Shown: positions 6,855 to 13,825 of the stretch, in pieces
Position numbering within the stretch: the stretch's first letter is position 1
Layout: every line of letters begins with the position of its first letter
NCBI RefSeq assembly: GCF_005860765.1
Contig: NZ_VCEI01000025.1
Span: forward strand, 1-64,000
Direction: 5' to 3'
DNA from: Dyadobacter sediminis
GTDB taxonomy: Bacteria > Bacteroidota > Bacteroidia > Cytophagales > Spirosomataceae
DNA length: 64,000 nt
The notes under the pieces: generated by a model
What the model saw: only the letters and a program-made list of their open reading frames with translations
What the model was told of the DNA's origin: nothing
The model's database searches: none
Made by a program: the position numbers and the translations under genes

Positions 6855-9191
6855 ATGATCATGCATTTCCGGTTTTCTTTGCTGCCCGTTCCTTTTCTGC
6901 TATGCGTGTTGTTCGGCATCAGGAATGTTGCTGCGCAGGAAAAGCCTTTGATTGATTACGTGGAAACCAGAATCGGAACGGCTCCGTCCGCAACGGAAAG
7001 CGCACGCATGCACAGCGAAGCTGGCAGTGAGTTGAAGGGACAAACCATTCCTGTCGCCGGCGTTCCGAACGGCATGACGCACTGGACGCCGCAAACGAGA
7101 GCTTCCGAAGCAAAATGCATTGCGCCCTATTATTACAACGACACCAGCTTTCAGGGATTTCGCGGTACGCACTGGCTCAACGGTTCCTGCGTGCAGGACT
7201 ACGGCTCGTTTACTGTAATGCCATTATCCGGCGAACTGATTACGGATGCTGAACAGCGGGCTTCTGCTTTCATGCATGAAAAGGAAAAAACATCGCCGGC
7301 GTATTACGGAACATGGCTGGAAAAATATCAGATCCATGCCGAAGTAACGGCGACTGCGCGCGCGGCAATGATGCGGTTCAGCTTTGAAAGCGGGGAAGAA
7401 TCATTTGTTGTTATTGAGCCAAATAGCGATGAAGGAGAAGCTTTTATCGAAGTTTCCAAGGAAAAAGGAGAAATTACAGGCTATAATCCGGTGCACAGGA
7501 TTTATCAGGGAGCAGGCCAGCCGGCGGGAATCAGCGGCTATTTTGTCCTGAAATTTGACCGTCCGATCAAGCAGTTTGGCGTCTGGCGCGGCGATACGGT
7601 TTCACCGGCTGGAAGGTCCGTGACCGGAAACGGGGACAAGGTAAAATCCGGAGCGTACCTTGGTTTTGGATCTGGCAAGCAAGTCGTTTCGGTAAAAATC
7701 GGTACTTCTTTTACAAGTCTGGAAGGTGCAAGGCTGAATCTGGAAAAAGAAATAGGAAGTCAGGATTTTGAAACAATAAGGAAATCGGCTGAAAAAGCAT
7801 GGAACGAGGCTTTGGGAAAAGTAAAGGTAAAAGGAAGTGAAAAGGATAAAGTTCTATTTTACAGCGCCTTGTATCGTACCAAGCTGTCGCCGAGGCTTTT
7901 TTCAGATGCAGATGGGAAATATCCTTCTTTTGCCGGCGGAACGCCCGTTCAGCTTGCAGAAGGATTTGATTATTACTGCGATTTCAGCTTGTGGGATACT
8001 TTCCGGGCGGCTATGCCTTTGAATATTCTTCTGGAACCGAAAAAAACCGGCGATATGATGCAGTCGCTCGTCAAAAAAGCGGAGCAAGGCGGCTGGATGC
8101 CGATTTTTCCCTGCTGGAACCATTATACCGCTGCCATGATCGGCGACCATGCGATGTCGGTGATGGCAGACGCTTACATCAAGAACGTGCGGAATTTTGA
8201 TTTGAAAACGGCTTATAGTTATCTGAGAAAAAATGCATTTGAAGTCAATGCCGATCCGAAAAGCTACGATGCGGGAAAGGGCAGGAGAGCGCTGAATTCG
8301 TATCTTCAATACGGCTATATTCCTTTGGAAGACAGCGTATGGCAGGCTTATCACAAACGCGAACAGGTTTCACGCACGCTGGAATATGCTTATGACGATT
8401 TCTGCCTGTCGGTGCTGGCATCTGGTTTGGGATTCACAGACGATGCCGCGAAGCTGAAAAAAAGAGCCATGAATTACAGAAACGTCATTGATCCGGGAAC
8501 GGGCTATGCGCGCGGGCGCTATGCAAATGCAAAATGGATCGCTGACTTCGATCCGTTTGTGAAGCGTTCCAGCTTTATTACCGAAGGCTCTCCGGCTCAG
8601 TATACCTGGTTTGTACCGCAGGATATTGCCGGACTTCAGAACATGATGGGCAGCAGAAATGCATTGACCAGCAAGCTGGACACACTATTTGAACAAGGTC
8701 ACTACTGGCATGGAAACGAGCCAAATCATCAGATTTCGTATTTGTATGCATATGCAGGCCAGCCCTGGAAAACGCAGAAGCTGACAAGGAAAATCATCCG
8801 TGAGGAATATGACACCGGAAACGGCGGGCTAAGCGGAAACGAAGATGGCGGACAAATGTCGGCCTGGCTGGCGTTCAGTATGATCGGTTTTTATCCCGTT
8901 GCTCCGGGTACGCCGGAATATGTGTTGGGAAGTCCGGTTTTTGAAGAAGTAACAATCCATTCGGGTAACGGTAAAAAGTTTGTTATTGAAGCAAAAGGCG
9001 TTTCTGAGTCAGCGTATTATATTCAGTCGGCTACTTTGAACGGCAAGGTTTTTACAAGAAATTTCCTCACGCATGCTGAAATTGTCAATGGCGGAAAACT
9101 GATTTTGCAAATGGGCACAGAACCCAATAAAACCCGGGGTGCCAAACCGGAGGACGAACCTTTCTCTGTTTCAAAAATCAAATTGAATTGA
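6855..9191 (+). CDS. GH92 family alpha-mannosidase, exported
   Basis: A 778-residue protein with a signal peptide (cleavage likely after VAAQ, near residue 28). It shows the hallmarks of glycoside hydrolase family 92: an N-terminal beta-sandwich beginning DYVETRIGTA, then a six-hairpin domain with GNEPNHQ (acid Glu near residue 621) and the GLSGNEDGGQMSAW block near residues 657-670 holding the catalytic base Asp, followed by FYPVAPG. Family members are calcium-dependent exo-alpha-mannosidases that trim mannans and N-glycans. The signal sequence places it in the periplasm or beyond. It stands alone, divergent from the MBL gene, with no SusCD pair beside it. A second ATG two codons downstream could equally be the start. 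Confidence 0.93.
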   Translation: MIMHFRFSLLPVPFLLCVLFGIRNVAAQEKPLIDYVETRIGTAPSATESARMHSEAGSELKGQTIPVAGVPNGMTHWTPQTRASEAKCIAPYYYNDTSFQGFRGTHWLNGSCVQDYGSFTVMPLSGELITDAEQRASAFMHEKEKTSPAYYGTWLEKYQIHAEVTATARAAMMRFSFESGEESFVVIEPNSDEGEAFIEVSKEKGEITGYNPVHRIYQGAGQPAGISGYFVLKFDRPIKQFGVWRGDTVSPAGRSVTGNGDKVKSGAYLGFGSGKQVVSVKIGTSFTSLEGARLNLEKEIGSQDFETIRKSAEKAWNEALGKVKVKGSEKDKVLFYSALYRTKLSPRLFSDADGKYPSFAGGTPVQLAEGFDYYCDFSLWDTFRAAMPLNILLEPKKTGDMMQSLVKKAEQGGWMPIFPCWNHYTAAMIGDHAMSVMADAYIKNVRNFDLKTAYSYLRKNAFEVNADPKSYDAGKGRRALNSYLQYGYIPLEDSVWQAYHKREQVSRTLEYAYDDFCLSVLASGLGFTDDAAKLKKRAMNYRNVIDPGTGYARGRYANAKWIADFDPFVKRSSFITEGSPAQYTWFVPQDIAGLQNMMGSRNALTSKLDTLFEQGHYWHGNEPNHQISYLYAYAGQPWKTQKLTRKIIREEYDTGNGGLSGNEDGGQMSAWLAFSMIGFYPVAPGTPEYVLGSPVFEEVTIHSGNGKKFVIEAKGVSESAYYIQSATLNGKVFTRNFLTHAEIVNGGKLILQMGTEPNKTRGAKPEDEPFSVSKIKLN

Positions 9192-9356
9192 AATGATGAT
9201 TATTGGCTTATAATTGAAATATGTGCATTAATAATTGGATTTTGCTTGAATAGTTGGAATGATATATGGTTAATAACTACAAATACGATATAAAATTTGT
9301 AATACTTTGCTGTGTTGCTTAATTTCCGTCTGTATCTATTCTCTAAATCCAGTCCG

Positions 9357-10505
9357 ATGAATCGTAGAAGTTTTTTTGCCAGGGCCGTTCCTGCAAGTTT
9401 TGCAATAGGTGCGGTTGCAGCTTCCTGTGCGCCGAAATCTCAGCAATTATATCCCGACAAGCACTTTCACATCAGTCGTGGTTATCACCAGATTCCCAAA
9501 CTAAGGCTTTCCACCGATCGTATTGTAAAGGAAACGGTTGGTTTAAGGCCGTTTCGTGCTTCCGGTCCGAGACTGGATGTTGAAAAACTTGGAAATAAAA
9601 CAATTGTTCACAATTACGGACACGGAGGCAGTGGCTGGTCGCTGTCATGGGGAACGGGCAATATTGCAAGGAAAAATGTGCTTGCTACCAACGAAAAGAA
9701 AATTGCGGTTCTGGGCTGCGGTACCGTCGGCATTGCTACGGCGCGGCTGTTGCAGGAAAGCGGCTGCGAAGTGACCATTTATACAAAAGACGTTCCGCCC
9801 AATATCACGAGTAATCTGGCAACAGGCACTTGGTCGCCGGCATCGCGTGTATGTGATGTGAAAGTAGCCAAACCGGAATTTCGCACGGTCTGGGAAGAAG
9901 CTACAAGATTTTCATTCCGCAGGTTTCAGTTTCTGCTGGGTATGAATGAAATTGCATGCTGGGCGGAGGAATACGGCGTTTTCAGGGAAATGCCGGTTTA
10001 CACGCCGGGTGCCGGCGGCGAAGATTTTGAGATTGAAGGATTGCTGCCGGAACGTGTAAAACTGGATTCCAGAGAACATCCGTTTAAAGCAAATCATGTT
10101 ACGCGGCGTTCCAATCTGATGTTCAACATTCCGGCTTACCTGCGACATCAGTTAACTGATTTTGTGATGTTTGGCGGAAAAGTAAAAATTCAGGAAATCA
10201 GAAAACCGGAAGATATTGATGCGCTGCAGGAAAACGTGGTTGTCAACTGCATGGGACTGGGTGCAAAGCCTGTGTTTAATGACGAGGAACTTACGCCGGT
10301 TTCCGGTCAGCTTTCATGCCTTATCCCGCAAAGTGACATCCATTACAAACTCTATACGCAAGGTGCCAATTTTATTTCAAGAAAAGACGGCATATTCATT
10401 GGAAGCAACGGCATAGTCGGAAACTGGGACACTACGCCGAGTAAAGAGCAAACTGAAAAAACAGTAGGTATTCTGCAAAAACTGATGGAAGAAATGAAAG
10501 GATGA
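9357..10505 (+). CDS. Tat-exported FAD-dependent oxidoreductase, D-amino-acid-oxidase-like with permuted domain order
   Basis: A 382-residue protein. MNRRSFF at the N-terminus is a twin-arginine export signal and VAASC (Cys24) could be a lipobox. Sequence blocks typical of D-amino acid oxidase are present in rotated order. The block normally at the C-terminus, VGLRPFR (61-67, Arg64 equivalent to the substrate-carboxylate Arg) and HNYGHGGSGWSLSWG (85-99), comes first. The Rossmann FAD motif GCGTVG (120-125) and TSNLATGTWSP (151-161), normally at the N-terminus, follow. The chain ends at GIFIGSNGIVGNW, normally mid-to-late in the family. The expected reaction is oxidative deamination of an amino acid or similar, unproven. 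The start at 9357 is preferred over an upstream in-frame start at 9312 because it places the Tat motif at the terminus. Confidence 0.85.
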   Translation: MNRRSFFARAVPASFAIGAVAASCAPKSQQLYPDKHFHISRGYHQIPKLRLSTDRIVKETVGLRPFRASGPRLDVEKLGNKTIVHNYGHGGSGWSLSWGTGNIARKNVLATNEKKIAVLGCGTVGIATARLLQESGCEVTIYTKDVPPNITSNLATGTWSPASRVCDVKVAKPEFRTVWEEATRFSFRRFQFLLGMNEIACWAEEYGVFREMPVYTPGAGGEDFEIEGLLPERVKLDSREHPFKANHVTRRSNLMFNIPAYLRHQLTDFVMFGGKVKIQEIRKPEDIDALQENVVVNCMGLGAKPVFNDEELTPVSGQLSCLIPQSDIHYKLYTQGANFISRKDGIFIGSNGIVGNWDTTPSKEQTEKTVGILQKLMEEMKG

Positions 10506-12623: not shown

Positions 12624-12802
12624 TCTTTCTTTTTTACTGCAATATATCAGTTTAAAATTTCAGGCGTACAGCTTTGAAATTTCATTTCTGCCTGCGTTTT
12701 TACCAAAATATACAGGTTCTTTAAAATGAACATTCCGTTATTTGCATTATAGAAATGTTGAAAAAAAAGAATTGGGCCTGAATGGCAAAGGTATTTTTGA
12801 AA

Positions 12803-13825
12803 ATGAAAATAGACTTACGAAGCGATACGATTACAAAACCTACGCCGGAAATGCAGCAGGCCATGTGGGCGGCAGAAGTGGGCGATGATGTACTGGGCGA
12901 CGATCCGACGGTGAATGCTCTGCAGGAAAAAGCAGCCAGGCTTTTTGGAATGGAAGATGCCTTGTTCTGTCCTTCCGGAACCATGACCAACCAGCTTGCA
13001 ATCCGTGTGCATACACAGCCCGGAAGCGATGTGATCTGTGACAAATATTCTCACATTTACCTTTACGAAGGCGGTGGCATTATGCTGAACGCACTATCGT
13101 CCGTGAAGCTGCTGGATGGTGACAGAGGCCGCATTTCTGCTGCTCAGGTTGCCGGTGCCATAAGTCCTGTCCATGATATTCATTCAACGGTAACGCGGCT
13201 TGTATCATTGGAAAACACCATGAACAAAGGCGGAGGCTGCTATTATGATTTTCAGGAGATAAAAGCGATCCGGGAGGTTTGTTCACAAAACAACATTCCG
13301 CTGCATCTGGATGGCGCCCGGCTTTTCAATGCATTGGTGGAAACCCGCGAGTCACCGGAACAGTACGGGCAGGTTTTCGACAGCATCAGCATTTGTCTCT
13401 CCAAAGGGCTTGGCTGCCCGGTCGGTTCACTGCTGCTCGGAACCCGGGAAGTAATCAGCAAAGCGCGTCGCTTCCGTAAGGTAATGGGTGGCGGCTGGCG
13501 GCAGGCCGGTTTTCTGGCTGCCGCAGGAATTTACGCGCTGGACAATCATATAGAACGTCTCAAAGAAGATCATGGCAGGGCACGCAAGATCGGAGAAATG
13601 TTCCGTGCCAGGCCGGAAGTCAGAAATATACTTCCTGTTGATACCAATATTGTCATTATAGAAGTGGATGAAACGATTTCAGAATCCGCCTATGTCAGAA
13701 AGCTGGCAGATGTTGGTATTCTGGCTGTTGCATTCGGCAAAAATCTGGTCCGTTTTATCACGCATCTTGATTTTAACGACGATCATCTGGAGGAAATGAA
13801 TAAAAGGCTCAAACTTCTGGAATAA
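12803..13825 (+). CDS. ltaE: Low-specificity L-threonine aldolase
   Basis: A 340-residue fold-type I PLP enzyme of the beta-eliminating lyase/threonine aldolase family. It begins with the family's characteristic [15 protein letters not shown], contains HLDGAR with the PLP-pyridine Asp170, and [10 protein letters not shown] with the Schiff-base Lys201. It cleaves L-threonine or L-allo-threonine to glycine and acetaldehyde in the cytoplasm. I take the ATG at 12803, which places the conserved DLRSDT at residues 4-9; an in-frame ATG 21 bases upstream is the alternative. The 3' end overlaps the convergent DUF1398 gene by 17 bp, so the transcripts must be antisense at their tails. Confidence 0.93.

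Follow-up and report, generated by a model that had tools for sequence, protein, structure and literature searches.

A natural circular permutant related to D-amino acid oxidase, probably an exported lipoprotein, in Dyadobacter and other bacteria

The closest described relatives of the protein reported here are the D-amino acid and D-aspartate oxidases (DAAO and DASPO), represented by the pig (1kif), human (6rkf) and Rhodotorula (1c0k) enzymes. The canonical order, with the FAD fingerprint first and the GxRPxR and YGHGG motifs last, is general in the DAO fold, and is also that of the glycine oxidase ThiO and of DadA and DauA. Both domains of a two-domain flavin oxidase are built of non-contiguous segments, and a natural permutation of such an enzyme is therefore unexpected. 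According to excerpts of PMC9844085, the GxRPxR and YGHGGxG motifs emerge on alignment of bacterial DAAOs and occur also in some glycine oxidases, and among accepted DAAOs the active-site Arg is conserved and the Tyr is not. As an analogue of the pathway considered below we propose the DadA/DadY and DauA/Rid couples of Pseudomonas, where the imino acid formed by a flavoenzyme is removed by a Rid deaminase: excerpts of the two descriptions have the DadA-released imine deaminated by DadY (PMC9714295) and iminoarginine from DauA as a substrate of Rid2 and Rid3 proteins (PMC5619798), and an exported Rid partner is absent from these excerpts. An excerpt of PMC4433059 adds that genes for FAD-dependent amine oxidases are found clustered with RidA genes and that RidA hydrolyses imines from an amino acid oxidase, whereas Rid4-Rid7 appear to be without imine hydrolysis. 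Among the matches listed in the open-access literature we found no report of a natural permuted DAAO (subscription papers and preprints being outside the scope of the search); a "D-amino acid oxidase" of Asaia bogorensis, named among released proteins in an excerpt of PMC12502724, is a lead only, known by name.

The window, i.e. the whole stretch of 64,000 nucleotides from Dyadobacter sediminis that was analysed (contig NZ_VCEI01000025.1, positions 1 to 64,000), contains at 9357-10505 an open reading frame of 382 amino acids plus stop, delimited from the ORF list, the sequence and its relatives; all parts of this gene given below lie on the forward strand. An alternative in-frame GTG is found at 9312, and close relatives start at the position of ATG 9357. 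The first-pass annotation had read this frame as a D-amino-acid-oxidase-like flavoprotein in rotated order, and the frame and its motifs do sit where it had placed them. The protein has in common with DAAO and DASPO both homologous blocks, the FAD fingerprint, GxRPxR and the HNYGHGG-type motif, and differs from them in its rotated order, in a Tat lipoprotein-type signal and in having Asn338 where those enzymes have the active-site Tyr. An N-terminal block of about residues 45-112 (9489-9692), recognised by Pfam DAO and by a block profile as homologous to the C-terminal end of canonical DAAOs, holds GLRPFR (residues 62-67, 9540-9557), HNYGHGG (residues 85-91, 9609-9629), both located from PDB sequence matches and motif counts, and the canonical last helix. 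It stands ahead of the core, residues 113-382 (9693-10502), which comprises the FAD-binding and substrate domains through the helix that canonically precedes GxRP (Pfam DAO 1-298 at 115-378, and VIA-align), and in which the dinucleotide-binding fingerprint GCGTVG occupies residues 120-125 (9714-9731).

Several types of comparison gave the blocks in swapped order. On the DNA, positions 285-350 of Pfam DAO match 9456-9668 and positions 1-55 match 9699-9857, in the same frame and with the order reversed (6.2e-6 and 8.1e-6 for pieces 1-55 and 285-350, calculated for one genome, the second piece alone being just below cut-off), while the protein belongs to PF01266 with 74.8 bits against a cut-off of 27.9, in two stretches. 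The best phmmer matches among PDB sequences were human DASPO and yeast DAAO, and in the 6rkf match residues 113-368 correspond to chain residues 12-262 and residues 57-104 to chain residues 280-330. The swapped Pfam and PDB pieces therefore indicate a rotated order. When the sequence was rotated in silico, pig DAAO (1dao, 1an9) aligned as a single stretch (3-340 against 2-323) and in native order as two, with near-equal scores for the rotated and native searches (40.6 and 40.2 bits for 1dao, 62.9 and 63.6 for 6rkf, 56.9 and 58.3 for 1c0i). For each block a profile was made from 27 permuted rows and applied to sequences outside the profile set. The C-terminal end of every one of the 17 canonical DAAOs was matched by the N-block profile (i-Evalue at most 6.7e-9 for 100,000 sequences), with a match of the core profile nearer the N-terminus in each (at most 5.6e-7); in nine of the 17 the best core stretch was confined to the second half of the core profile. 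These bacterial canonical DAAOs (Bacteroidota L053-L063, Verrucomicrobiota L153 and Actinomycetota L163-L167), with open frames of about 305-420 amino acids, core first and block last, had been chosen beforehand by motif order, and the profile test is therefore a test of block homology. In 10 of 10 permuted proteins held out of the profiles the block order was reversed, and the genome of the window encodes six further DAO-family proteins that were tested, of which the N-block matched none, the best core match being 0.02. Two homologous blocks are thus swapped, with the old termini joined and a new break, as in a circular permutation. The order of the window protein is not the canonical one, which makes it a permuted relative and not a canonical member; canonical DAAO membership was rejected on this ground. 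Glycine oxidase identity was rejected too: ThiO is the best NCBIfam match, in two stretches, with a score far under the cut-off (33.4 against 250.8 bits), and no model exceeded its cut-off among the best 25 of the 61 touched.

Genome searches with the window protein as query (threshold 1e-10, overlapping samples that include the window's genome) matched 50 of 150 genomes of the family, 20 of 241 of the order and 12 of 395 of the phylum, a patchy distribution; at this threshold no match was obtained in G064, G112 and G142, genomes of the window's own genus. In the phylum search the permuted form was present in two of the 12 genomes (the window's and G031), and the other ten held 11 canonical loci. 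A scan of named genomes, which favours close relatives, gave 78 loci from the best 80 of 94 relative-encoding stretches; 31 are from Dyadobacter, and the other genera include Runella, Larkinella, Spirosoma, Lacihabitans, Jiulongibacter, Adhaeribacter, Chryseolinea, Lunatimonas, Flexithrix, Pelagicoccus and more. The rotated order is conserved in these homologues, 79 of 79 genes in the 78 loci (best 80 of 94 stretches) being permuted, with near-constant length. Six of 240 genomes of Verrucomicrobiota were matched, five with the permuted form (one being the Pelagicoccus gene itself) and one with the canonical; a search of the same phylum with a canonical relative matched three of 230 genomes, namely the query's own gene and two known permuted genes. 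Matches on plasmids came from seven records: the permuted form is carried by those of Niveispirillum, Kozakia, Rhizobium, Bradyrhizobium and Nonomuraea, the annotation splits the Mesorhizobium copy in two, and the Streptomyces gene is of canonical order. Permuted relatives outside Bacteroidota are found in Verrucomicrobiota, Pseudomonadota and one actinomycete, Nonomuraea being the only actinomycete found with this form. L050, a relative in Bacteroidota with as little as 27% identity, is permuted too, and this together with the occurrence in several phyla makes the permutation look old. One permuted copy, L049 in genome G226, has 8 in-frame stops within the matched stretch.

Residues 1-24 (MNRRSFF...AASC, 9357-9428) form a predicted Tat lipoprotein signal, with RR at residues 3-4 (9363-9368), a hydrophobic stretch and a lipobox-like Cys24 (9426-9428), all seen on inspection of the sequence. 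The Tat signal proposed in the first-pass annotation is borne out as to its motif, and its type is refined to Tat-lipoprotein-like. An RRx-hydrophobic motif is present in 80 of 80 proteins (the 79 scan genes from the best 80 of 94 stretches and the window protein, with an upstream start used for L127), and a lipobox-like Cys, by pattern, in 76 of the same 80; the four without this Cys, three from Lunatimonas and one from Pelagicoccus, keep RR. Since both features are so general, the scan proteins and the window protein are probable Tat lipoproteins, and the window's genome gave one TatC match. The permuted proteins of Rhizobium, Bradyrhizobium and Nonomuraea and that of L152 were judged by eye to be without signal, so permutation and export are separable.

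RPxR, H[NH]YGHGG and GxGxxG are each present in 91 of 91 permuted rows, a set preselected as permuted that consists of the window protein, the 79 scan genes and 11 further relatives; the G of GxRPxR is replaced in three distant rows (L050, L157 and L158). We take Arg64 to correspond to the Arg that binds the substrate carboxylate, Arg283 of pig DAAO, and the HNYGHGG motif to be the loop near the flavin in DAAO. Asn338 (10368-10370), located in aligned sequences by counting back from a shared R-x-D-G motif, is at the place of Tyr228 of the pig enzyme, and the window protein thus lacks the active-site Tyr. A motif-anchored count at this position over the 91 permuted rows gave N in 40, Y in 30, S in 19, A in 1 and E in 1.

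A RidA-family gene lies at most 1.8 kb from the permuted gene in 34 of the 78 named loci (best 80 of 94 stretches), corresponding to 34 of 47 non-Dyadobacter loci versus none of the 31 Dyadobacter loci; none is near the gene in the window either. Seven neighbours with a Pfam PF01042 match, of which two matched PF14588 as well, were the source of the profiles used, and ten neighbour proteins in all had their family membership confirmed. By chance, a RidA gene would be expected within 2 kb at about half a percent of loci, as estimated from the six RidA genes in the 6.2 Mb of the window's genome, all of which are away from the permuted gene, and the RidA loci are not independent because many come from the same genera. 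One of these six genes, L145, has a Tat-like start by eye. In the 34 loci the RidA gene is divergent and upstream in 23, on the same strand downstream and of another subtype in 8 (Larkinella and Spirosoma), convergent downstream beyond another gene in 2 (Adhaeribacter), and on the same strand upstream in 1 (L118). Three verrucomicrobial loci also have a RidA neighbour, namely L148, L149 (identical with the gene of L141) and L150. No RidA gene was found near the permuted genes of L050, L051, L052, L151 and L152 (flanks of about 1.5 kb), in the seven plasmid loci, or in 12 of 12 canonical DAAO loci scanned with flanks of about 1.5 kb. By eye the RidA neighbours look exported, and the 32 complete ones listed keep an Arg in the C-terminal P/H-x-R motif, which we take to be the catalytic Arg. 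They are small genes with apparent signal peptides and of varied subtypes and sides (L092, L097, L104, L139, L148 and others), which suggests that, next to one and the same oxidase, one exported Rid deaminase may have taken the place of another.

A Tat-type class-V aminotransferase gene is directly 3' of the permuted gene in six loci (L124, L125, L128, L134, L136 and L137). Members of the signal-less clade directly precede a gene for a TPP-dependent enzyme, assigned by Pfam in Rhizobium, Bradyrhizobium and Nonomuraea and by annotation in Mesorhizobium. In these loci (L159-L162) an FAD-binding oxidoreductase gene comes before the permuted gene in L159 and L161 (BBE type by Pfam in L161), and the gene set may represent a small pathway that plasmids of rhizobia and an actinomycete have in common. 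The Kozakia relative is followed by a cytochrome c gene, in a plasmid cluster (L158) comprising a canonical DAO enzyme, a beta-lactamase-fold hydrolase, an S9 peptidase, the permuted DAAO relative, the cytochrome c and a TonB receptor. In the window itself, a Glycoside hydrolase family 92 protein is encoded upstream on the same strand (6855-9191; homologous ORF in 24 loci of a total of 79, the window counted), and a beta-eliminating lyase family PLP enzyme, threonine-aldolase-like, at 12782-13825 (homologous ORF in 30 of these 79).

We consider it likely that the gene encodes a naturally circularly permuted DAAO relative which is exported, anchored and deaminates D-amino acids. The protein would fold with its FAD in the cytoplasm, leave through the Tat pathway and be held outside the cytoplasm by a lipid anchor at Cys24. 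Arg64 would hold the carboxylate of the D-amino acid, and hydride transfer to FAD would yield the imino acid, which a RidA-type deaminase, encoded near the gene in many other genera and elsewhere in the genome in Dyadobacter, would convert to keto acid and ammonia; FADH2 may pass its electrons to O2 or to a respiratory acceptor. The TPP-dependent enzymes beside the signal-less clade are counted in favour of this reading. Asn338 at the Tyr position, the lack of a nearby RidA gene in Dyadobacter, in the five further loci and on the plasmids, the patchy distribution and the weak support for one origin in the full tree count against it. The best surviving alternative, which we hold to be rather unlikely while giving it appreciable weight, is that the permuted DAAO fold catalyses a different reaction, either on another alpha-amino or hydroxy acid or as a dehydrogenase that passes electrons to a cytochrome or quinone and not to oxygen. 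Such a change of reaction would accord with Asn, Ser, Ala or Glu at the active-site Tyr in 61 of 91 rows, with a stretch before the strand of the Tyr position that is shorter than its counterpart in the majority of 13 aligned canonical rows, with the cytochrome c gene directly behind the Kozakia relative and with the aminotransferase behind the six loci. However, RPxR is kept in 91 of 91 rows, and the RidA neighbours accord with release of an imino acid. The Tyr, moreover, is variable among accepted DAAOs too, according to the excerpts of PMC9844085.

The permutation was probably a single old event, since the signal-less clade is permuted too. The canonical order, being general in the DAO fold, is inferred to be ancestral. 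A permutation usually arises by tandem duplication followed by loss of the outer ends, and no intermediate was found among the loci examined. Two permuted genes in tandem, in one frame with stops between them, are present at L123:2507-4975; the record is titled Thalassovita, a name that may be wrong because the same contig turned up in the window's own order. In an unrooted tree of 54 rotated sequences the permuted rows fall on one side of a branch with support 49/80, and with six long or odd rows dropped (48 rows) the same branch has 100/99, here with a program warning about long branches that meet. The next alternative is that the same loop was broken independently at least twice, once in the exported and once in the mostly signal-less clade, which we regard as unlikely but not negligible. 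It would agree with the low support of the uniting branch when all rows are used, which occurs in 46% of bootstrap trees, and with the distance between HNYGHGG and GxGxxG, 28 residues in 82 of 91 rows and 32 in the signal-less L152, L159, L160 and L161, so that the joint is alike and not identical in the two clades. The rise in support without the six rows speaks for one origin, as does the break in the same loop in both clades; L151, furthermore, groups with the signal-less clade (82/85) and yet has the 28-residue distance and a Tat-like start.

The structural consequences of the rotation were examined in an AlphaFold2 model of the mature protein, computed with 36 other rows (model residue n is protein residue n+24). 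The model is confident (mean pLDDT 88.9, pTM 0.88), with block means of 87-98 in the N-block and values under 50 in the first 19 residues. In protein numbering it has a helix at 92-109, a strand at 115-119 and a C-terminal helix at 363-379 (model 339-355; 10443-10493), which by the model and VIA-align is the helix before GxRP in canonical DAAO. The new joint, which leads from the helix that is last in canonical DAAO to strand one of the FAD domain, is accordingly placed by model secondary structure at about residues 110-114 (9684-9698). The old ends would thus be joined by about five residues, with the new N-terminus just before the GxRPxR strand and the new C-terminus directly behind the helix from which this strand follows in the canonical order. 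Two details of the first-pass annotation have to be changed: the linker, given there as about residues 101-114, is in the model reduced to about 110-114, since 92-109 is the helix that comes last in canonical DAAO, and GSNGIVGNW (residues 349-357) is not the end of the chain, which continues for some 25 residues, including helix 363-379. VIA-align superposed model residues 88-354 on residues 2-263 of 6rkf_B (Z 22.0, rmsd 2.5, 251 residues) and gave Z 21.3 for 1kif_A; over DASPO and DAAO residues 1-269 the predicted core scored Z 19-22 (19.8-22.0 for 1kif, 6rkf and 1c0k), indicating a core fold like theirs. The best row outside DAAO and DASPO was glycine oxidase, which has the DAO-type fold in common with the window protein at a lower score (Z 16.6), and in Foldseek DAAO or DASPO made up all of the first 33 rows. 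Both programs align sequentially and omitted the N-block. For the N-block, the order of secondary structure, the pLDDT block means of 87-98 and the sequence homology agree, as indirect indications, with a putative DAAO-like place in space.

It may be asked whether the N-block instead docks on a second protomer or another protein, as in a domain swap, and not on its own core. An un-permuted counterpart, a canonical-order chain obtained by reading L123:2843-4174 through 9 stops, was modelled with 28 core rows and zero N-block rows, because MAFFT misplaced core ends or N-blocks when given both; from residue 281 on, the stretch holding the N-block, its pLDDT block means were 20-36. That model, made without N-block rows, left the block unplaced and has no bearing, either way, on the permutation; the predictions are of monomers only. 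Against a swap stand the joint of only about five residues from last helix to first strand and the high confidence of the block in the monomer model, and we find the swap very improbable. Accidental fusion of two gene fragments, an assembly error or a decayed gene can be rejected for the family as having practically no chance, for although such artefacts can mimic a rotation and the related copy L049 has its 8 in-frame stops, the same order and near-constant length recur in 79 full-length open genes of 78 named loci (best 80 of 94 stretches), and the uncorrected pN/pS between the window gene and its nearest relative L064 is 0.043.

Overall, our data establish the rotated order and its conservation, the homology of both blocks to DAAO, and a confident model with a DAAO-like core. 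Beyond this we tentatively propose, as an idea with somewhat less than even prospects, that one ancient permutation founded a separate branch of DAAOs in at least four phyla, that this branch comprises two clades, one cytoplasmic and associated with TPP-dependent enzymes, the other of exported lipoproteins associated with exported RidA, the latter forming an unrecognised extracytoplasmic pathway of D-amino acid deamination, and that through the rotation the export anchor would no longer have to be borne by the first strand of the FAD domain, which is buried. A rotated enzyme of this kind is passed over by sequential annotation, as with NCBIfam (none over cut-off among the best 25 of 61), and by sequential structure search. 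A conserved and widespread permutation is a natural experiment on the tolerance of the fold to new termini, and the permuted DAAO may serve as a template for DAAO engineering in biosensing and chemogenetics. For Bacteroidota, it gives a testable proposal for the use of D-amino acids outside the cytoplasm.
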